This document shows positions 51,755-60,155 of a DNA stretch of 64,000 nt, piece after piece. This DNA comes from Candidatus Halocynthiibacter alkanivorans (lineage in GTDB: Bacteria > Pseudomonadota > Alphaproteobacteria > Rhodobacterales > Rhodobacteraceae): the NCBI RefSeq assembly GCF_003333265.1, contig NZ_QOLB01000079.1, positions 62,001 to 126,000 on the forward strand, in the 5' to 3' direction. Under the pieces are notes generated by a model, which saw only the letters and a list, made by a program, of their open reading frames with translations, ran no database searches and was not told the DNA's origin. Made by a program: the position numbers and the translations under genes. Each line of letters opens with the position of its first letter. The stretch's first letter is position 1.

Positions 51755-52570
51755 TTATGGTCCAAAGTCTGCCGCTGTTACCGGCTGGCTGAATGCTTCG
51801 TGCAGCAGATCAGCTTTTTCCAGTTCCATCCGGAATTTTGGCCCATTTTCAATCGCATCAATTACATTGTCGTTCAGATCTTGCCTGAAAAAACTTGAAC
51901 CGATTTCACGCTTTGGATCACAGGTTGGAAACCCCAGTTCCGATTGCCTCAGCTCATTGAGAAGTGCTGATGATCCTTGCAGAACGTGTTGTTCATAAGA
52001 CAAAATTAATGGTCGCGGTGCTTGATGCTGCTTCAATATCGTGGCGACAGTATTGAACCAGGACCGGGCATGACGGGCTTCAGTAGCAAACTTCCGGACG
52101 TCTACCACCGGTTTAAACCCGGTGGTGTCCTGCCGTTTCCAGACGTTCAGCGATCGCGCTTTCAGCAAAGACACATAGCGTGGCAGTTGCGCGCGCGTCA
52201 GTATGACAACGTCTGTGCGGGGATGGCTCAACAGCGCTGCGACAGCCGGTACAGGCAATTGATCGGCGAACAGCGTAAATGACACCCGGTTCAGCCCATG
52301 TTCCCGCGCGCAATGCTCGAGTTCAGACAATGCCCGCAACGGATCCGCATGAATCCAGCTCATCAGGTTGCTCGAAGCTTCTTCCAGAGTTTGATCCTGA
52401 AGCACATTGCGCAAATGTTTCAGGGCAATGGAATTTCCTGTCCTGAGACCAAACGCTCCGCGCGGGTTAAAGATTTCGCGCAGCCCCAGGACGCCGGGGA
52501 TCTGGCTTACGATATCCTGCAGCCAGTTGGTGCCGCTCCGCTTCAGGGAAACAAGTAAGAGCCGTCGCAT
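51755..52570 (-). CDS. Sulfotransferase family protein
   Basis: 271 residues. The PAPS 5-prime-phosphosulfate loop is LLVSLKRSGTNWLQDI (residues about 4-19), and the 3-prime-phosphate motif is VVILTRAQLPRYVSLLKAR (about 121-139), in the order and spacing of bacterial sulfotransferases. It would move sulfate from PAPS to a hydroxyl or amine on a sugar, lipid or peptide. The start overlaps the radical SAM stop by one base (TGATG). Its acceptor could be the product of the neighbouring glycosyltransferases or a Tyr/Ser-containing peptide; that is inference. Confidence 0.85.
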   Translation of the reverse strand: MRRLLLVSLKRSGTNWLQDIVSQIPGVLGLREIFNPRGAFGLRTGNSIALKHLRNVLQDQTLEEASSNLMSWIHADPLRALSELEHCAREHGLNRVSFTLFADQLPVPAVAALLSHPRTDVVILTRAQLPRYVSLLKARSLNVWKRQDTTGFKPVVDVRKFATEARHARSWFNTVATILKQHQAPRPLILSYEQHVLQGSSALLNELRQSELGFPTCDPKREIGSSFFRQDLNDNVIDAIENGPKFRMELEKADLLHEAFSQPVTAADFGP

Positions 52571-54048
52571 CAGAGAAACAGTTGTTCATATTTTTGGCGG
52601 GACTGATCCACAAGAGCGGTCATGCTGCCAAGTTCGATCCCGGGTTGGCGCAGCCCTGGATCAGCAAGGTGTCTGAGCAACAGATCGTGCTCCGGATGCT
52701 CTTCCGAACATACGTCCATTTTGCGAAACTCATCGGCGGAATAATGCCCCCAATTGCGCAACCTCAGGAAATAGACCCCATCCGCCCCGCTTTTGACCGC
52801 CAGACGTACAAAATCGCCGATTTCGCAGAAATTCTGTTGCTGTACGACAAAATCGAGACGAAAGCTGTCGATGGATCCGGTGCGCCGCAACATGCCCAGG
52901 AATCCCAGGTTTTTGCGCAGTTTATCAAACTGTCCGCCGCGGCGGACGACCGAATAAGTCTCAGCGCTGGCGGCATCAACAGACACCCAGACGGAGGACA
53001 CCTGGTCCCAGAGATCCAGCTCCTCCCAGGCCCGTTCATCGGCCAACAGCCCGTTGGTGTGCAGTTGAATACGCCGCCCGGTTGTTCCCATTGAAGTCAG
53101 TTTTTTGAGAACGAAACGGAAATGGCGGCTGCCAAACGGGTCACCGGAGCCGGTAACCTTCACCTGGGACGCTTCCGCCACCAGAGGTAACAGCCGTTCT
53201 TCAAAGAGCTTGTCCAGCCGTTCGGATTTTCGATGCGCCAGGTTGATCAGTTTTGTCCGGCAACTGGGACACTGGATATTGCAGGACCGGTCATGGGACA
53301 GGATGACCCGGTCGGGGCCTTTTTCCACGTGGAGCGGATCTTCATCTTGCTGTGGCAGGTTTTTGTCCGGCTCCTTCGGTGGCAACCGCCGACCGGCAAT
53401 GGCAGGACAATTCCAACGGCTGCAATGGCTGAAATCGCCCTCCAGTACCGATTTCCGGATGGCTTTTGCGCGTTTCGAGTTCCAGAAATCTTTTTCTTTA
53501 TCACGCAGTGACCCGATTGTGACGGGTTGCCAGGCCGAACAGCAAAAATGAACACTGCCGTTGGTCCGGGTTTCGATTTGCCGGAACGGGGCAGGGCAGG
53601 TGCGGGTTTCAAGCCAACGGTCAACAGGCAAATGTAGCGAAGTGGACTGCTCCGTTGCCGCATCAGAAATCCGCTGCGCCAACAGGTCGTGGTGATCCCG
53701 GGCCACGACTTCATTGGTCAGATCCAGCGCCGCCTGCCAAGCCTGTTGCATCAGCGCGAACCATGCAGCAGCGTTCAGGGTCACGCGGCGCAGGCCAGAT
53801 CTGTTGCTGATAGCCCAGTGTAAAAACGGCTGCGTTTCGTTTTCGCTGAGCGCTGACGACAGTCTGTCTCTCTGACCCGCAACAAATTTTGCGGCCGTTC
53901 TGTCCGGCCCGTCCAGAAGCCCACGCGACCGGATATACCTGTTCTCTGTGGCGTCAATCGTGGCGGTCAGTGACTGGAACGCCTTCTCTGCCAGTGACGG
54001 GCATGTCAGCGCTGGCGTGTCAGCCGGGGAGTTGGGCTTATATGCCAT
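52570..54048 (-). CDS. Radical SAM protein with an N-terminal SPASM-like cysteine region
   Basis: 492 residues. The 4Fe-4S radical SAM motif is CNIQCPSC (C256, C260, C263), which lies unusually far into the chain; it is followed by VKVTGSGDPFGSRHFRFVLK and the strand pattern of a SAM barrel (RIQLHTNGLLADERAWEEL). Before it, residues 151-214 carry CPAPFRQIETRTNGSVHFCC and FSHCSRWNCPAI (C151, C169, C170, C209, C214), which look like a SPASM/twitch auxiliary-cluster region. The usual order is reversed. The first 140 residues are helical without recognised homology. It overlaps the caspase gene by 11 bp and the sulfotransferase gene by 1 bp. Peptide or sugar modification is the likely activity. 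Confidence 0.85.
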   Translation of the reverse strand: MAYKPNSPADTPALTCPSLAEKAFQSLTATIDATENRYIRSRGLLDGPDRTAAKFVAGQRDRLSSALSENETQPFLHWAISNRSGLRRVTLNAAAWFALMQQAWQAALDLTNEVVARDHHDLLAQRISDAATEQSTSLHLPVDRWLETRTCPAPFRQIETRTNGSVHFCCSAWQPVTIGSLRDKEKDFWNSKRAKAIRKSVLEGDFSHCSRWNCPAIAGRRLPPKEPDKNLPQQDEDPLHVEKGPDRVILSHDRSCNIQCPSCRTKLINLAHRKSERLDKLFEERLLPLVAEASQVKVTGSGDPFGSRHFRFVLKKLTSMGTTGRRIQLHTNGLLADERAWEELDLWDQVSSVWVSVDAASAETYSVVRRGGQFDKLRKNLGFLGMLRRTGSIDSFRLDFVVQQQNFCEIGDFVRLAVKSGADGVYFLRLRNWGHYSADEFRKMDVCSEEHPEHDLLLRHLADPGLRQPGIELGSMTALVDQSRQKYEQLFL

Positions 54049-56161
54049 TGAGGCGCCGCTGTTGTTCTACTCTGCGCTCGATAACCGCGATCTGTCCTTC
54101 AGTTAACTGATTGCGGGCGCGTGCGAGAATTTTCTCAATGTTTTTCACCTTGCCGATCTCCGCCAATCTTGCGTTGAAATAGGCCTTTATCGGATCTGCC
54201 GGCACAACCACCCCGTCAAGATAGAGGCGCGCGAGTTCGCGGTACCCGTCCCGGAAACCCCGGTCGGCAGACAGCTTAAACAGATCAATCACCCGGTCGG
54301 GGTCTGCTGATCCGGCACCTGTAGCGATCAGATCCCTGGCGAAAAACACCGGTGCAAACCGGTCGCCCGCCGCAATTGCCCGTTGAAACCAAAGATGGGA
54401 CTTGTTGCGGTCAGGCTCCACACCCCATCCCGCCAGGTAGCTGCGGCCGAGTGAGTTCATCGCCGCGCGCTGACCGTTGGCCGCGGCCAGATGATACAGC
54501 GCGGCAGCCGCGACCTCATCCTTTTTCACGCCGCGCCCTTTGCGGTACAGGTCCGCCAGCGCATTTTGCGCATTGGCCCATCCCATTCCGGAGGCCAGCC
54601 GATACCACAGCACACCTTCTTCCGGCACCGGGTCCATACCCTGTCCTTTGACAAACATTGTCCCGACATTGGTGCGGGCGCGCAGATTTCCCAGTTGCGC
54701 AGCCTGCCTGTAATAGGCCGCAGCGGTGTCGTAGTCGACATCTCCGCCCCTGCCTTTGATCGCCATAAAACCGAGGTTGGTGAGCGCCGCAGAATAGCCC
54801 TGGCCGGAGGCTCTCAAATAATAATACCGTGCTAAATCATAACGCCCCGCCAGGTCCAGGACGCGGCCGAACTGAAACAGGATACGTGGATTCTCCGGGT
54901 CCTCGTTCAGGCGGAAGCCGCACGCCCGGGCCGCCTCGCGTATGTTGACCAGCCCGCCCCTGATCGGCGGCGCAACCCGCTGCGGATCGGCCGGATCAGA
55001 CGCCAGCATATCACAGCGGGTCACAAGCTGTGCCAGCCCGTTTTCCACCCGGGGCAGGCGATCCGGCCAGATCCGGAACAATTCGGCCGGAATGTCTGTG
55101 TCGGGTTGAAACCCCACCTGGGTCTCAAACACCGTCCGGGCACGTTCCAGCTCGAGGATTGTTGCCGAGCTGACCGCCCCGTTTGCAAGAACGAGCTGCC
55201 GGCTGGTGTCCGACCTGACAATCTGAATGTCGCGCAACCGTTGCGAAGCCTGGTCAATAAAAGAGCTGCCGGGGAAGGCAGATATGAAATCGGACAGAGT
55301 GTTGGCAGTCAGTTCGTTGCGCAGAAACCACCACACAACATCCCCCAGCTTCGGGGCTCTCGCTGACACGGTTTCCCTGGCTATCGTGTCCGAAAAGGCC
55401 GGTTTGAACTGTGGGTCAGTTTCTGTGGATCCGACCACCCAGGGGATTTGCAGGCTTTCAGTCGCAATCCGCACGTCCCGCCGCACCGAGCGCAGCGCCT
55501 GAGACACGGTAATACCTTTGCGCCGCAACGCGCGGCTGAAGGCAAGAGCATAAGGACCGTTGCCGCCGCGCGGACCGTCAAACGCCAGCTCGCCCGCACT
55601 GGTCGAATAGGCGATCAGAGTCTGGGCATCGCCGCTTTCCTCAAAGGATAGCCCCTGAGAAAACGCGTCGTCGATACTGGAAAACGGATCATTGCGGCAG
55701 GCATCAATGATGATCAACCGCAGCGATGCAACGGAACCAGGATCATCCTTTTCAGGCGTTGTTGCCTCCAGGATACTGGTAAGCGGCACCCGTTTTTCAT
55801 TGATCGTCTCGGCGGTGAGCTCGTCGACATCCACAGCCAGCAACTGGTTCTGACCGTTGTACTGGAATGCATGCCCGGCATAATAAAACACGCTCAGATC
55901 AGCGCCCCTGAACTGCTCACCGATTTCGGCCAATATGCTGTCCATAGAAGCCCGCTCGACATCGAAGTAGGCGGAAACGGAAAAACCGGCCTCTGCCAGG
56001 GCCGCAGCGACAGAGCTTGCATCCCGCGCAGCATTGGCGAGCGGCGCCGCAGGATACCGCACATTGCCGATGACGGCGGCTTCAAACCGAGCTGCCTGTG
56101 ACGGTAGTGTGGATACGAGCGACGCAGCGACAATCAGAGTGGGCAGAAGTTTCAATATCAT
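54038..56161 (-). CDS. Exported caspase-like protein (peptidase C14) with Sel1 repeats
   Basis: 707 residues from ATG 56161; an upstream in-frame GTG is less likely. A signal peptide (MILKLLPTLIVAASLVSTLP, cleavage near SQA) leads into a caspase/metacaspase p20-like domain. The catalytic dyad is His97 (VFYYAGHAFQYNG) and Cys155 (RLIIIDACRNDPF). From about residue 430 on there are at least five Sel1-type repeats, such as SAALTNLGFMAIKGRGGDVD, NAQNALADLYRKGRGVKKDE and RAAMNSLGRSYLAGWGVEPD. It should be a periplasmic cysteine protease or a protein-interaction scaffold. It is the first gene of a three-gene minus-strand operon with the radical SAM and sulfotransferase genes, so it may process the modified product. 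Confidence 0.88.
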   Translation of the reverse strand: MILKLLPTLIVAASLVSTLPSQAARFEAAVIGNVRYPAAPLANAARDASSVAAALAEAGFSVSAYFDVERASMDSILAEIGEQFRGADLSVFYYAGHAFQYNGQNQLLAVDVDELTAETINEKRVPLTSILEATTPEKDDPGSVASLRLIIIDACRNDPFSSIDDAFSQGLSFEESGDAQTLIAYSTSAGELAFDGPRGGNGPYALAFSRALRRKGITVSQALRSVRRDVRIATESLQIPWVVGSTETDPQFKPAFSDTIARETVSARAPKLGDVVWWFLRNELTANTLSDFISAFPGSSFIDQASQRLRDIQIVRSDTSRQLVLANGAVSSATILELERARTVFETQVGFQPDTDIPAELFRIWPDRLPRVENGLAQLVTRCDMLASDPADPQRVAPPIRGGLVNIREAARACGFRLNEDPENPRILFQFGRVLDLAGRYDLARYYYLRASGQGYSAALTNLGFMAIKGRGGDVDYDTAAAYYRQAAQLGNLRARTNVGTMFVKGQGMDPVPEEGVLWYRLASGMGWANAQNALADLYRKGRGVKKDEVAAAALYHLAAANGQRAAMNSLGRSYLAGWGVEPDRNKSHLWFQRAIAAGDRFAPVFFARDLIATGAGSADPDRVIDLFKLSADRGFRDGYRELARLYLDGVVVPADPIKAYFNARLAEIGKVKNIEKILARARNQLTEGQIAVIERRVEQQRRLNGI

Positions 56162-56579
56162 GGGATAACCCCCGAAACTTTTGACTGAGCATAGTATGGC
56201 GACCATTTCCGGTCAATAATTCCGGAAACGTTCCGTCAACCCCCGTCGATTTATGACGCCGGTTTCGGCTCCCGGGAAGGAAACTGAAAACGACCGGGAA
56301 AGTATTGTGAATGTTCAAAGGCGGAATTCTGAGCCTTGTGGCCCATACTGCCGGGGAAATGTGGTGGCGGCTTTCCTGCGAATAATCAGCGTGTGTTCCG
56401 CGCCCGTCAACGGGCTGTGTCCCGGGTCACGCGCAACCCAGCAATCAATCCGGAAACAGTCGCAGTGAAGGACTGGTACGGCGTGCAGAGCTGGACGTTG
56501 CAAACTCTGTGCCGGAAGAGGCTTAATGCATCTGCTGCACCTGGCCAGGTCGCCACAGTTACTTCCGTTTGCATACAGA
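56162..56579. other. Divergent intergenic region
   Basis: About 420 bp between the caspase operon and the first Tat-leader peptide gene. No gene is supported; both promoters must lie here. Open frames on either strand have no resemblance to known proteins. Confidence 0.5.
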
Positions 56580-56608
56580 TTGAAAAAACGGCTGATATAT
56601 TGTACAAT
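56580..56608 (+). promoter_or_regulatory. Sigma-70-type promoter of Tat-leader peptide gene 1
   Basis: TTGAAA (56580-56585) and TACAAT (56603-56608) are separated by exactly 17 bp. The arrangement and the hexamers are identical to those before peptide gene 2. The predicted start lies about 28 bp upstream of the ATG. Confidence 0.72.
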
Positions 56609-56642: not shown

Positions 56643-56873
56643 ATGGGGGACTCAAGGATTGAGCACCGTGTAACAAGACGCGATTTCCTGGCGCGGTCAG
56701 GCAAGATTGCAGGTGCAGCTCCGGCTGTCACACTGCTGCTGTCGACAACGAGCATTCCAAACAGCGCGGTTGCATCATACACGCATAATCACTCGGGTTA
56801 TAAGCCAAAGGGGGGAAACCGTTCGCACGGGGGCAGAAGAGGCCGCAGAGGCCGCAGAGGTCGCAGAAGGTAG
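56643..56873 (+). CDS. Short Tat-leader peptide 1 with a poly-Arg/Gly tail
   Basis: 76 residues from ATG 56643 with a GGGGGGA ribosome-binding site. Residues 10-44 form a leader with a twin-arginine motif (VTRRDFLARSGKIAGA), a hydrophobic stretch (PAVTLLLSTTSIP) and an AVA cleavage site. The remaining 32 residues are extremely basic: 12 Lys/Arg, 3 His and no acidic residue, ending in a repeated GRR pattern coded by a 9-bp DNA repeat (about 56842-56871). The leader is almost identical, residue for residue, to that of the next small gene, whose tail is acidic. It is probably an exported or modified small peptide; no family was recognised. It lies upstream of a PqqD/kinase gene, so it is a candidate RiPP precursor. 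Confidence 0.75.
   Translation: MGDSRIEHRVTRRDFLARSGKIAGAAPAVTLLLSTTSIPNSAVASYTHNHSGYKPKGGNRSHGGRRGRRGRRGRRR
56842..56871 (+). repeat. 9-bp coding repeat encoding Gly-Arg-Arg units
   Basis: The unit GGCCGCAGA (with a GGTCGCAGA variant) is repeated in frame at the end of peptide gene 1. Slippage could change the tail length. It is too short and lacks spacers to be CRISPR. Confidence 0.65.
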
Positions 56874-57028
56874 AATCGCGCTGCCCCGCAGCCTGTGGCA
56901 CAGGGACCGGGCGCGCGTTATGACCACGCAGTTGGCAGAGGCTATCGCAGAACCGCGCGGGACAGACACCGGTTTGGTGCTTGATGTTTCAGTCAATACA
57001 ACCGCAGGTTTTTCCCTTTGCATGTACA

Positions 57029-57057
57029 TTGAAAAATCGGCCCAAAAATAGTACAAT
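57029..57057 (+). promoter_or_regulatory. Sigma-70-type promoter of Tat-leader peptide gene 2
   Basis: TTGAAA (57029-57034) and TACAAT (57052-57057) are separated by 17 bp, the same elements and spacing as for gene 1. The surrounding bases are also related (TTTGCAT...ACATTGAAAAA versus TTTGCAT...AGATTGAAAAA), which shows that promoter and gene were duplicated together. Confidence 0.72.
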
Positions 57058-57092
57058 CCCCTTATTCATAAGGCGATAAACGGGAGGTACAG

Positions 57093-57314
57093 ATGGAGAA
57101 TGCGGAAAGCGAAAACAGCGTAACACGACGAGATTTTCTGGCCCGGTCAGGCAAGATCGCAGGTGCTGTACCTGCAGTCACATTGCTGATGTCGACCACG
57201 GTAATTCCTGGCAAGGCAATTGCGGGATACATGGATGGACCCATTATCCGCGACGAGTACGACGACGATGAATATGATGACGATGAAGAAGACGACGAAG
57301 AAGACGACGAATAA
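57093..57314 (+). CDS. Short Tat-leader peptide 2 with a poly-Asp/Glu tail
   Basis: 73 residues from ATG 57093 with a GGGAGG ribosome-binding site. The leader (SVTRRDFLARSGKIAGAVPA, VTLLMSTTVIPGKAIAG) aligns without gaps to that of peptide 1, with the cleavage motif AIA at 42-44. The 29-residue tail has about 19 acidic residues and one Arg (DEYDDDEYDDDEEDDEEDDE). It is thus a paralogue of peptide 1 with an opposite charge. A polyanionic tail could bind cations or the basic partner, or could be a substrate region (two Tyr) for the neighbouring enzymes. No known family was recognised. Confidence 0.78.
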   Translation: MENAESENSVTRRDFLARSGKIAGAVPAVTLLMSTTVIPGKAIAGYMDGPIIRDEYDDDEYDDDEEDDEEDDE

Positions 57315-57737: not shown

Positions 57738-58958
57738 ATGGGATCAGCAATTGCGCCGCACAAAGACGTCACCATCCACCTGATTGGGAAAGACGCTCTG
57801 TTGCTACAGGCTGAACGTGGCGATCTGATCCGGCTCAATCCAGCGGCGGCGTATATCTGGTGCTGTCTGCAAGATGGCCAGGGACCTGAAGAGATTATTT
57901 CTGATTACAGTTCTGAGTACTGCAGGTCCAAAGAGCATGCGCGGAACGAAATTGACCTGACCCTCAAAAATTTCAGTGATCATGGTCTGCTGGCAGGGGG
58001 GGCAGATGAGGCTGTAGAGTCGCGTCCTGAGCCCGGGCAAACGCCGCTCCCACGCAGGAGCACCCCCCCTGAAAGGAGAGGCCCGCAGCACAGCCTTCAA
58101 ATTCTGGGCACAAAGTTCCATGTTTATTACCCCAGCGCTGATCTTCGCGACGCCGTGGAAGAGGTCATGGCGCAATTTTCCGAACCTGACAAAAGCTGTG
58201 ACGTTGTGATGGATGTTGTCCGGCGCGGCGGGGGCTACGGAATCCTCGCCGATGGTCAGGAAATCGAGTCGGGGCGGTCGGTCGACGAGCTGATCCCCCA
58301 GTTAAAAAGTGCATTGTTGGTGACCGCGATCAACCGGATTGAATTCGGCGCATATTTCCATTCGGCGGTTCTGAGTGTTGGTGACGAACTGTTGCTGCTG
58401 CCCGGACCGGCAGGGAGCGGGAAAACCTGTTTAACACTGGCGCTCTCTCTCAATGGCTTTGGCTATGTTTCCGACGAAACTGCCTTGCTTGAAATGAAGA
58501 CCATGCATATCCGCGCGGTTCCGCTGAGCCCCTGTTTAAAGTCTGGTGCCTGGGATCTGATTTCCACAATGTATCCAGCCCTGTCGAAAATCAAACCTTA
58601 TCAGCGAGTTGACGGCAAAGAAGTTAAATACCTTCCTGTGCCTGCCTGGCGGGGGAACGGATCGCGGGATACGGCCCGCCCGGCGCGGTGGATGGTATTT
58701 CCAACCTACAGTCCGGAGCAACCAACCGAACTGCGACGTGTTGAGCATATCGATGCGCTTCAAAGGCTGGTTCAGGATTGCAATGCATGGCGCGCAGATT
58801 TGACGCCGCAAATGGTCGACCAGATCATTGAGTGGATTTACGGTGTGACCTGTTATGAATTATGCTTCTCGTCACTGGATGAAGCTGTGAATGAAATCGC
58901 CAGTATATGCAAAGATGGACAGTTCGGGCACAGCAACAAGCGGCTGCATCTTCTGTAA
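57738..58958 (+). CDS. PqqD-like (RRE) domain fused to an HPr-kinase-like ATPase
   Basis: 406 residues from ATG 57738; GTG 57729 with GGGAG just before it is an alternative. Residues about 8-90 are a PqqD-like winged helix, the fold of RiPP recognition elements (ERGDLIRLNPAAAYIWCCLQ, NEIDLTLKNFSDHGLL). A Pro/Arg-rich linker (about 92-117) leads to an HPr kinase/phosphorylase-like domain: His208 in GAYFHSAVLSVGDELLLLPG, P-loop GPAGSGKT at 223-230, and YVSDETALL at about 243-251. HPrK-like kinases next to RRE proteins are known to phosphorylate lasso peptides; similar fusions occur in cell-surface glycan clusters. Here it probably recognises the leader of the small peptides upstream and phosphorylates a substrate. 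That link is inferred. Confidence 0.85.
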   Translation: MGSAIAPHKDVTIHLIGKDALLLQAERGDLIRLNPAAAYIWCCLQDGQGPEEIISDYSSEYCRSKEHARNEIDLTLKNFSDHGLLAGGADEAVESRPEPGQTPLPRRSTPPERRGPQHSLQILGTKFHVYYPSADLRDAVEEVMAQFSEPDKSCDVVMDVVRRGGGYGILADGQEIESGRSVDELIPQLKSALLVTAINRIEFGAYFHSAVLSVGDELLLLPGPAGSGKTCLTLALSLNGFGYVSDETALLEMKTMHIRAVPLSPCLKSGAWDLISTMYPALSKIKPYQRVDGKEVKYLPVPAWRGNGSRDTARPARWMVFPTYSPEQPTELRRVEHIDALQRLVQDCNAWRADLTPQMVDQIIEWIYGVTCYELCFSSLDEAVNEIASICKDGQFGHSNKRLHLL

Positions 58959-59042: not shown

Positions 59043-60155
59043 ATGTCCCGACCGGTTCACAACACAAAAAGGTGTCTCTTGCCAGAAACCGATCCGGGAA
59101 TAGATTTTGTTCTGGACTGCGTAGCGCAGCACCCCGGCAATGCGCGGAAGGTTCTTGCGGCGGGGATCAACCTTGAATCCGCAATCAAATTCGCAATCGA
59201 CAATGAAGTGGTCGGAGAATTGCTTTTTGCGATTGAAAGCGAAAATCTCGACATCCCTGATGACGTCGTGCGGGCCATGCATATTTTTTTGCACCGATAT
59301 CCTGTCCCATTGCGGGCGGTCCGGCGTCAAACCCTTGAAATTGCGAGAGTACTGAATGCGCATGGCGTGGATTTTTTCATCGCGAAAGGAGTGGTGTGGA
59401 ACGTGCTGTACCGGGACGAGGGAGTCGTGCGAACAACCAAGGACGTAGATGTCTATCTCAGGAAGGAAGACATAACCTCTGTCGTAACCATGTTGGAGAA
59501 ACGGGGATACATCCGTCGGAATGTTTCGCTGCAAACATCCCTGAAGCACCTGCACCACTATGATATCTGGTCACCTGATTACGGCATTCATATTGAGTTG
59601 CACTGGAACCTTGCCCATCCGCGGCACAATTTGCGGTTTTGCATTGATCAGGCAATCTCTCGCTGTGCCAGTGCCTTGTTTGACGATCAGACGGTGCCGG
59701 TCCTGAGCGCCCGTGATGCAATCGTCTTTCTCGCACTGGAACTTTCGAAAGACTCATGGGAGAACCTGAAAAAACTTATCGATTTCTCCCGGTGCGTTTC
59801 AGCCGCGTCTGACAATGATTTGTCCGGCGCGGTGGAATTTGCCCGCAGCAACGGATGCGCGCGCGCACTGTCAATCAGCCTGGCGCTGTCACATCAATTG
59901 GGCCTGGCACAAAGAACGGAGCATACCCCTTCATTGCGCAACTCCAACGGCGTTTCAGCAAGGCTGGTCGACATATGCGAGCAACATTTCAGATCAAACC
60001 GTAGACATCATTCGCTCGTTAGCAGGATGGTCCGGGGCCTCACGCTTGCACAAAAGCATGACAGTTGGCTGGCCCGGTTATATCATATCTGGCGCATCAT
60101 CATCGTGTACAGATTTCACAGTTGGATCGGGTTGCGTGCAGACAAGTTTTGGTAG
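59043..60155 (+). CDS. Nucleotidyltransferase family protein (NTP_transf_5)
   Basis: 370 residues. The MNT/NTP_transf_5 core is visible: GVDFFIAKGVVWNVLYRDEG, then VVRTTKDVDVYLRKEDITSV, in which the DVD pair supplies the metal-binding acids; IHIELHWNLAHPRHNLRF follows. The N-terminal 90 and C-terminal 130 residues are helical. The start could also be the ATG region a few codons on. It lies 84 bp after the kinase gene on the same strand. Such proteins recur beside PqqD-HPrK genes in RiPP and surface-polysaccharide loci; they may transfer a nucleotide to a peptide or protein, but the activity is not established. Confidence 0.83.
   Translation: MSRPVHNTKRCLLPETDPGIDFVLDCVAQHPGNARKVLAAGINLESAIKFAIDNEVVGELLFAIESENLDIPDDVVRAMHIFLHRYPVPLRAVRRQTLEIARVLNAHGVDFFIAKGVVWNVLYRDEGVVRTTKDVDVYLRKEDITSVVTMLEKRGYIRRNVSLQTSLKHLHHYDIWSPDYGIHIELHWNLAHPRHNLRFCIDQAISRCASALFDDQTVPVLSARDAIVFLALELSKDSWENLKKLIDFSRCVSAASDNDLSGAVEFARSNGCARALSISLALSHQLGLAQRTEHTPSLRNSNGVSARLVDICEQHFRSNRRHHSLVSRMVRGLTLAQKHDSWLARLYHIWRIIIVYRFHSWIGLRADKFW

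Follow-up and report, generated by a model that had tools for sequence, protein, structure and literature searches.

A Tat-type leader with variable tails in a recurring kinase-nucleotidyltransferase cassette: candidate modified peptides of Candidatus Halocynthiibacter alkanivorans

The window analysed in this study, a stretch of 64,000 nucleotides from Candidatus Halocynthiibacter alkanivorans (Rhodobacteraceae), carries two short tandem genes, pep1 and pep2, followed on the same strand by a gene for a PqqD(RRE)-HprK-type kinase fusion and a gene for an NTP_transf_5 nucleotidyltransferase (Table 1). A G-rich stretch precedes the ATG of both peptide genes. The kinase and nucleotidyltransferase genes were absent from a preliminary description of this DNA, and they explain the peptide pair.

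Table 1. Features of the peptide and kinase locus (positions within the window)
Feature	Position	Strand	Remarks
Promoter-like element of pep1	56580..56608	+	TTGAAA - 17 bp - TACAAT; by eye
pep1, precursor peptide with basic tail	56643..56873	+	76 aa
pep1 leader	56643..56774	+	residues 1-44; RR motif, PAVTLLLS core, AVA site
pep1 predicted mature tail	56775..56870	+	SYTHNHSGYKPKGG...RRGRRGRRR; net +12; AxA cleavage is a prediction
Promoter-like element of pep2	57029..57057	+	TTGAAA - 17 bp - TACAAT; by eye
pep2, precursor peptide with acidic tail	57093..57314	+	73 aa
pep2 leader	57093..57224	+	residues 1-44; AIA site
pep2 predicted mature tail	57225..57311	+	GYMDGPIIRDEYDDDEY...DDE; net -18; AxA cleavage is a prediction
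PqqD(RRE)-HprK-type kinase fusion	57738-58958	+	start 57738 is a guess
RRE (PqqD-type) domain of fusion	57738..57992	+	Pfam PqqD E 2.5e-9, 37.7 bits (cut-off 23.4)
HprK-type P-loop kinase domain	58086..58922	+	H208, K229, D246, E247; TIGR04352 88.9 bits (cut-off 200)
NTP_transf_5 nucleotidyltransferase	59079..60155	+	start 59043 or 59079 is a guess; PF14907 E 2.1e-30, 106.6 bits (cut-off 31.2)

As the preliminary description had it, pep1 and pep2 are tandem paralogues with near-identical leaders: both open reading frames are in place, and residues 10-44 align without gaps at 29 of 35 identical positions. Over residues 10-46, likewise ungapped, the 37 codons comprise 17 identical ones, 13 with silent and 7 with replacement changes, and the leader dN/dS of the pair is 0.24 (Nei-Gojobori). 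The same genome holds four leader copies in all, the other two lying on contigs C63 (tail net charge -4) and C26 (net -8, near the contig edge), whereby a chance match can be dismissed; a fifth match reached E 1.31. Across the six pairs from these four copies, leader dN/dS is 0.14-0.30 at dS 0.67-1.84 (Nei-Gojobori), and the leaders are therefore old duplicates under constraint (purifying selection). A leader profile built from 14 peptides was run on 8293 six-frame segments: its best reversed-decoy match was no better than E 0.7, and kinase-adjacent peptides scored from E 1e-21 down to weak matches of about 1e-4.

The tails are wholly different and oppositely charged, again as first described. 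After the AxA site pep1 has 12 Lys/Arg and no Asp/Glu, pep2 19 Asp/Glu and one Arg. No similarity was detected between the two tail DNAs, their local score of 20 being reached by 83 of 500 codon shuffles. Alternative frames of either tail do not yield the other, which means that a single sequence translated in two frames does not account for the tails. A frameshift origin of the opposite charges, which the preliminary description had named as a possible objection, is accordingly rejected on the evidence of both the frames and the codon-shuffle alignment. The codons of both tails form short repeats. The mature pep2 tail is free of Ser and Thr and has Tyr as its only hydroxyl residue; any mark there would therefore have to sit on Tyr.

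An element of promoter-like appearance, read by eye (TTGAAA, 17 bp, TACAAT or TATACT), is common to pep1, pep2 and the C63 copy, about 50 bp 5' of the ATG. The pattern ATTGAAAAAWCRGC occurs three times in the 4.77-Mb genome, each time before a precursor gene (pep1, pep2, C63), and the backward control gave no occurrence. No such element was found upstream of the C26 copy.

The two-domain reading of the kinase fusion is consistent with its structure model (mean pLDDT 87, pTM 0.85, 23 aligned sequences). In Foldseek searches the modelled N-terminal domain matches the lasso RRE TbiB1 (TM 0.88-0.91 by target length), and the modelled remainder resembles P-loop kinases, with PEP carboxykinase first (E 4e-6) and HprK/P at E of about 1e-2. 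A sequence profile of the fusion, compared to solved structures, retrieved HprK/P 1ko7 (E 2e-6) and the RRE TfuB1 (E 5e-6). Among kinase relatives, the last two catalytic positions are mostly DD or DE (motif blocks).

The neighbourhood was scanned with Pfam in 10 window proteins, a selection of the ORFs between 41 and 63.4 kb, two of them without match. Caspase-Sel1, radical SAM/SPASM, sulfotransferase, glycosyltransferase-like, NfeD, Band_7, isocitrate dehydrogenase and molybdopterin-binding proteins were identified. None of the 10 is a SipW-like peptidase, an MsbA-like or other ABC transporter, a lasso macrolactam cyclase (asparagine synthetase-like) or a B2 protease. The sulfotransferase, the radical SAM/SPASM protein and the caspase-Sel1 protein lie back to back on the minus strand (window 51755-56206), adjoining the peptide genes.

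The kinase fusion, the nucleotidyltransferase and the leader peptide are a recurring cassette. Full-length fusions were defined by a kinase-profile match from position 23 or earlier to position 360 or later with at least 130 bits, limits that were chosen after the scores had been seen. A leader peptide (E<1e-3) lies near 27 of 33 such fusions and a nucleotidyltransferase near 31 of 33, within the fetched stretches; among held-out loci, unused in training the leader profile, a leader peptide is present in 16 of 22. Separate searches had given 28/33 (17/22 held out), and the combined search drops one locus, L134. Left out of the 33 were L040 (kinase in two frames), L128 (domain starting at profile position 104), L079 (contig edge), L081 (82 bits, second leader type), L082 (129 bits, lacking the catalytic His) and all loci with the kinase core only. 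Six full-length fusions are without a confident leader nearby (L076, L077, L130, L134, L135, L138). Weak matches are present near L134 and L138 (E 0.0024 and 0.02), and a leader lies elsewhere in the genomes of L076, L077 and L130; at E<=1e-3 no leader was detected in the genomes of L134, L135 and L138.

In the family of the window the kinase is rare (4 of 295 genomes, one per genus, E<=1e-5), and two of its loci there, L029 and L028, combine it with a short RR-leader peptide and a nucleotidyltransferase. A single-sequence leader search returned no match at E<=1e-3 in the 294 other family genomes (one per genus) or in plasmid records; such searches missed divergent leaders, which occur on plasmids and in two of the family genomes searched and were reached by way of the kinase. 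Kinase matches occur in 32 of 72,556 plasmid records. Ten of these 32 loci were fetched, and eight have an uninterrupted leader peptide; in L036 a leader peptide was not found. The replicons with the kinase include those of Sinorhizobium, Ensifer, Rhizobium and Leisingera. Further out, kinase matches were obtained in 141 of 385 genomes of the class (E<=1e-8), many of them to the kinase core alone, and in 70 of 398 genomes of the phylum (E<=1e-20); wider flanks were obtained for 40 chosen stretches. Two loci stand apart. On plasmid pCasidaAB of Ensifer adhaerens the cassette is decayed, with kinase and peptide each in two frames (L040:4477-7142), and is uninterrupted in the close relative L039. 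In another genome of the window's family (G216, L030:172-7082) an HprK-like kinase lies with an ABC transporter, an asparagine synthetase-like protein and a likely precursor, which by eye has the look of a lasso-type cluster.

Kinase and leader also go together at the level of whole genomes. Within the family of G638, six of 82 genomes have the kinase (E<=1e-30), and exactly these six have the leader (E<=1e-6). Among the 385 genomes of the class, eight have a strong kinase match (>=190 bits, a threshold set after the scores had been seen), nine a leader (at most 20 candidates scored per genome) and seven both (Fisher p 1e-12, relatedness ignored). The sole strong-kinase genome of the class without a leader match, G604, has a leader that is cut by the contig end; two genomes count as leader-only, namely G407, whose genus also includes the kinase genome G673, and G415, whose kinase match is weak (E 4.4e-9). 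A longer leader profile, A6 (36 ungapped columns), detected the leader in 22 of 27 kinase genomes (E<=1e-3), and the five others include G604 and G007, the latter with a more divergent leader (L029).

These co-occurrences bear on a sober alternative, namely that the peptides are ordinary Tat-exported small proteins, that the nearness of the kinase is incidental and that the tails are slippage-prone low-complexity sequence of little function. The short codon repeats of the window tails and the generic Tat motif agree with it, and the modification is here a prediction from the genes. The presence of kinase and leader in the same six of 82 genomes is against it, as is the conservation of a Pro-Pro core in the hydrophobic stretch and of Ser at mature residue 2, and we regard it as quite unlikely.

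Two further candidate patterns were not retained. Two leader matches, in a Phycisphaerae genome and a Prosthecobacter genome (65-71% over 24-26 residues), were set aside as probable coincidences or generic Tat similarity. Polysaccharide genes lie near L124, L132, L033 and L034 (family search), L034 and L038 (annotation) and L029 (by eye); as a constant feature of the cassette this linkage was rejected, other loci being flanked by housekeeping, transposase or unassigned genes (20 flanking proteins scanned for families, about half of them without one).

Across all stretches gathered, 48 distinct leader peptides were collected with a profile ending before the tail, and 47 with A6; leaders running off a segment end, tails under 10 residues and exact repeats had been dropped from the 48. 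The leader keeps RR, F/L, G, A, T/P-P and alanines at -3 and -1. Its distance from RR to the predicted cleavage site is 33 residues in 26 of 36 tabulated copies (undeterminable in four). Behind this one leader the tails range in net charge from -18 (pep2, the lowest of 48) to +18 (Leisingera, L038). The value of pep1 is the third-highest, and the next-lowest tails after pep2 have -8 (own genome) and -6. Most tails are far less extreme, 36 of 48 being within ±5, and 22 of 48 consist of at least 40% Gly+Asn. A conserved leader with hypervariable cores, one of two readings offered in the preliminary description, is what these 48 peptides bear out.

The other reading was a complementary pair, in which a polycationic and a polyanionic tail would come together extracellularly and form a complex or condensate. 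It would fit the fact that the two genes adjoin, have similar promoter-like elements and encode tails of net charge +12 and -18. In the relatives, variable tails and one to five copies per kinase genome were found, and a comparable acidic partner was seen in none of the stretches gathered. The basic relatives L038 (+18), L034 (+13), L031 (+11) and L128 (+10) are without an acidic partner in the fetched stretches, and the genome of L128 (G728) has a single leader copy. A single peptide is present in 23 of the 27 full-fusion loci with a leader, a count that ignores a second, RR-less match in L137. No other tail among the 48 approaches the acidity of pep2, and the two other copies in its genome are mildly acidic and located on different contigs. 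Clusters of copies whose tails differ do recur (L074, L132/L133, L161), and the largest charge spread in another genome is 11 units (G673: +7, +4, -4) versus 30 here, in the subset of copies tallied; a strongly opposite pair was seen in the window's own genome only. The complementary pair would, moreover, leave the enzymes of the cassette unexplained, and we judge it distinctly improbable.

Mature residue 2, whose conservation the preliminary description had missed, is Ser in 38 of the 48 peptides, Tyr in four and another residue in six; these peptides are related sequences, and p values derived from them overstate independence. With A6, whose last column is that residue, Ser is found in 37 of 47. 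Among the 32 peptides from kinase-reached or own-genome loci, the counts are 24 Ser, 4 Tyr and 4 other; in the rest of the tails Ser makes up 7.7%. The Tyr carriers are exactly the four peptides of the window's own genome. Its genus is represented by this single genome in the data set, from which alone Tyr at this position and the charged pair are known.

Outside the 48-peptide count, peptides with a second leader type, SRRxALxRLG... (L023, L080, L081), and with a third, RRKxxKxG...AWAxSSC (L083, L085), have by eye a Ser at or beside the same position. The third type lies upstream of more distant HprK-related kinases, where RR-leader peptides were noted at L083:6246-6911, L085:6265-6834 and L089:3777-4511, with AWAxSSC in two of the three. 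At L080:6114-6783 (G352) two tandem peptides of the second type, both basic-tailed, stand upstream of an HprK-related kinase. At L161:1432-2490 (G372) three precursors stand in tandem, their leaders almost the same and their tails rich in Cys and containing KY[IV]C; Tyr rather than Ser is near the core start there, as in the window. The window's own genome seems to hold two more systems: on contig C103 (L023:5916-7531) a Tat-like peptide with a long Gly/Ser tail is followed by a kinase with an apparent C-terminal PqqD-like part (by eye), and on contig C15 (L022:2566-9550) an apparently separate PqqD-like protein and an HprK-related kinase accompany two glycosyltransferases, NTP_transf_5 and radical SAM (mostly by eye), with no leader peptide recognised at that locus.

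Taken together, we think it likely that pep1 and pep2 are RiPP-like precursors with a Tat-type leader and that their mature residue 2 would be phosphorylated, with glycosylation perhaps to follow. We infer the whole course, from leader-RRE binding, phosphorylation and glycosylation to Tat export, cleavage and a final role, as follows. The adjacent fusion protein would bind the leader through its RRE (PqqD-type) domain and, with its HprK-type kinase domain, would phosphorylate the hydroxyl at mature residue 2 prior to export; in most relatives the acceptor would be Ser, in the window's own genome Tyr. A sugar or nucleotide may next be attached to the phosphate by the NTP_transf_5 enzyme. The RR-hydrophobic-AxA layout of the same leader would then direct the peptide to the Tat translocon and to signal peptidase. 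The tails would be free to vary, so that duplicate copies could diverge to opposite charge. The probable place of action of the modified peptides would be beyond the cytoplasm, with the envelope or exopolysaccharide as possible targets.

The leader is the first step at which this course may be questioned. Motif [Y/W]xxPx[LVIFA], the RRE motif of lasso and LPP (linear polyphosphorylated peptides) leaders, is absent here, and PPxVT may be the part of the leader that the RRE recognises. Concerning the Tat signal proposed for pep1 and pep2, the RR-x-F-L motif, the uncharged stretch and the AxA site stand, and the curated models all stay under their cut-offs: TIGR01409 gives 15.6 and 15.5 for the two peptides (cut-off 16.7), PF10518 gives 13.7 for pep2 (cut-off 22.7) and PF10399, the Rieske Tat-signal model, 13.2 and 18.1 (cut-off 24). 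These low scores would suit a leader that serves the RRE only and is no Tat signal, the peptide leaving by another route or staying inside. We deem this very unlikely in view of the fixed spacing of RR-x-F-L, uncharged stretch and AxA; besides, no ABC transporter and no SipW-like peptidase that could serve such a route turned up in the neighbour scan (10 window proteins, Pfam, two without match).

The second critical step is the acceptor. Tyr at mature residue 2 might reflect a switch in kinase specificity or a loss of marking. In the latter case the Ser-to-Tyr change in all four peptides would mean that they have been repurposed and that the kinase is idle or acts elsewhere. The distribution of the residue (Tyr in 4/4 own-genome peptides vs Ser in 38/44 others) could be read that way, and in LPP the S3T and S3Y variants remained unmodified (PMC13381572). 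Against a loss, H, K, D and E are retained at the catalytic places of the kinase, and Tyr has been kept in all four copies despite their leader dS, suggesting that it matters. The four old Tyr copies favour a switch, the S3Y result opposes it, and a loss of phosphorylation appears unlikely to us. As the cause of a Tyr acceptor, the D-to-E change in the kinase (D246, E247) was not upheld, DE relatives such as L083 and L085 having Ser-type peptides.

From the likely reading, a bolder proposal may be developed, which as a whole is rather doubtful. One and the same sequence would be both Tat signal and RRE leader, with marking before export; the change from Ser to Tyr would make the kinase here an HprK-fold tyrosine kinase; and the tails would be interchangeable polyanion and polycation modules, displayed on the cell surface or linked to it by a phosphosugar.

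If the neighbouring enzymes do, as is probable, add phosphate and perhaps sugar to these peptides, the pair would belong to a family of modified peptides in bacteria that has been overlooked. In Bacillota, RiPPs have been shown whose synthesis involves an HprK-type kinase and an NTP transferase, and the same enzyme logic would be found here with a Tat-type leader in Alphaproteobacteria. The Sinorhizobium, Ensifer, Rhizobium and Leisingera replicons offer genetically tractable hosts for testing the role of the peptides. The Ser-to-Tyr change in all four peptides of one genome would be a natural experiment on kinase specificity, and the span of net charge behind one leader, from -18 to +18, would test in nature how much change of the core a leader-guided system tolerates.

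The peptides are not covered by any model of Pfam or NCBIfam: for the pair in the window all matches stayed below threshold and were chiefly to Tat models, and six relatives had no match at E<=0.01. Text searches of the literature, with most subscription papers outside their coverage, returned no fitting Tat-leader or HprK-PqqD peptide system among the matches listed. With Tat signal peptides the leader shares RR-x-F-L, the hydrophobic stretch and AxA, and it differs in its scores under the cut-offs. A conserved PPxVT core and a nearly fixed leader length set it apart as well, these not being known as general Tat features. The kinase is homologous to HprK_rel_A (TIGR04352), and unlike that family it scores under the cut-off and is fused to an RRE.

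The closest likeness is to LPP (PMC13381572, Popov et al. 2026). There an HprK-like kinase adds one to four phosphates to the precursor, at core Ser3, deletion of the NTP transferase was without effect in a heterologous host, and the biological role is given as unknown. Both systems have a PqqD-type RRE, an HprK-like kinase and an NTP transferase. LPP clusters likewise contain one to three precursors with a conserved N-terminus and a highly variable C-terminus and often lie near polysaccharide genes, and the modified Ser of LPP is near the core N-terminus (S3 in LPP, proposed +2 here) (PMC13381572). In the same account (PMC13381572) LPP are restricted to Bacillota, whereas the present cassette is from Pseudomonadota, and their RRE is discrete, whereas here it is fused to the kinase. 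Their SipW-like peptidase and MsbA-like exporter are not among the 10 window neighbours scanned, and their leader, YxxPxVLxHQxIxFETxxS (PMC13381572), contrasts with the Tat-type leader here, which does not match that motif. Because that peptidase and exporter were not found in the neighbours scanned and the leader motif is absent, the window system is placed outside LPP.

The lasso peptides paeninodin and pseudomycoidin share the enzyme pair, a Ser kinase and a nucleotidyltransferase-like enzyme linked to hexose addition (PMC9266682). According to this source, PadeK and PsmK/PsmN carry out phosphorylation and hexosylation of a lasso Ser; for pseudomycoidin, the phosphate on the C-terminal Ser comes from PsmK, and the addition of one or two hexoses requires PsmN. 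The lasso kinase motif is given as His-Lys-Asp-Asp (PMC9266682), versus His-Lys-Asp-Glu here. A cyclase and B2 protease, as in lasso clusters, are not among the window neighbours scanned, and the acceptor, the C-terminal Ser there (PMC9266682), is expected at the core N-terminus here. The best reading is therefore that of a system which would work like LPP and paeninodin, and which would nevertheless be a distinct variant of the HprK-kinase/NTP-transferase RiPPs.
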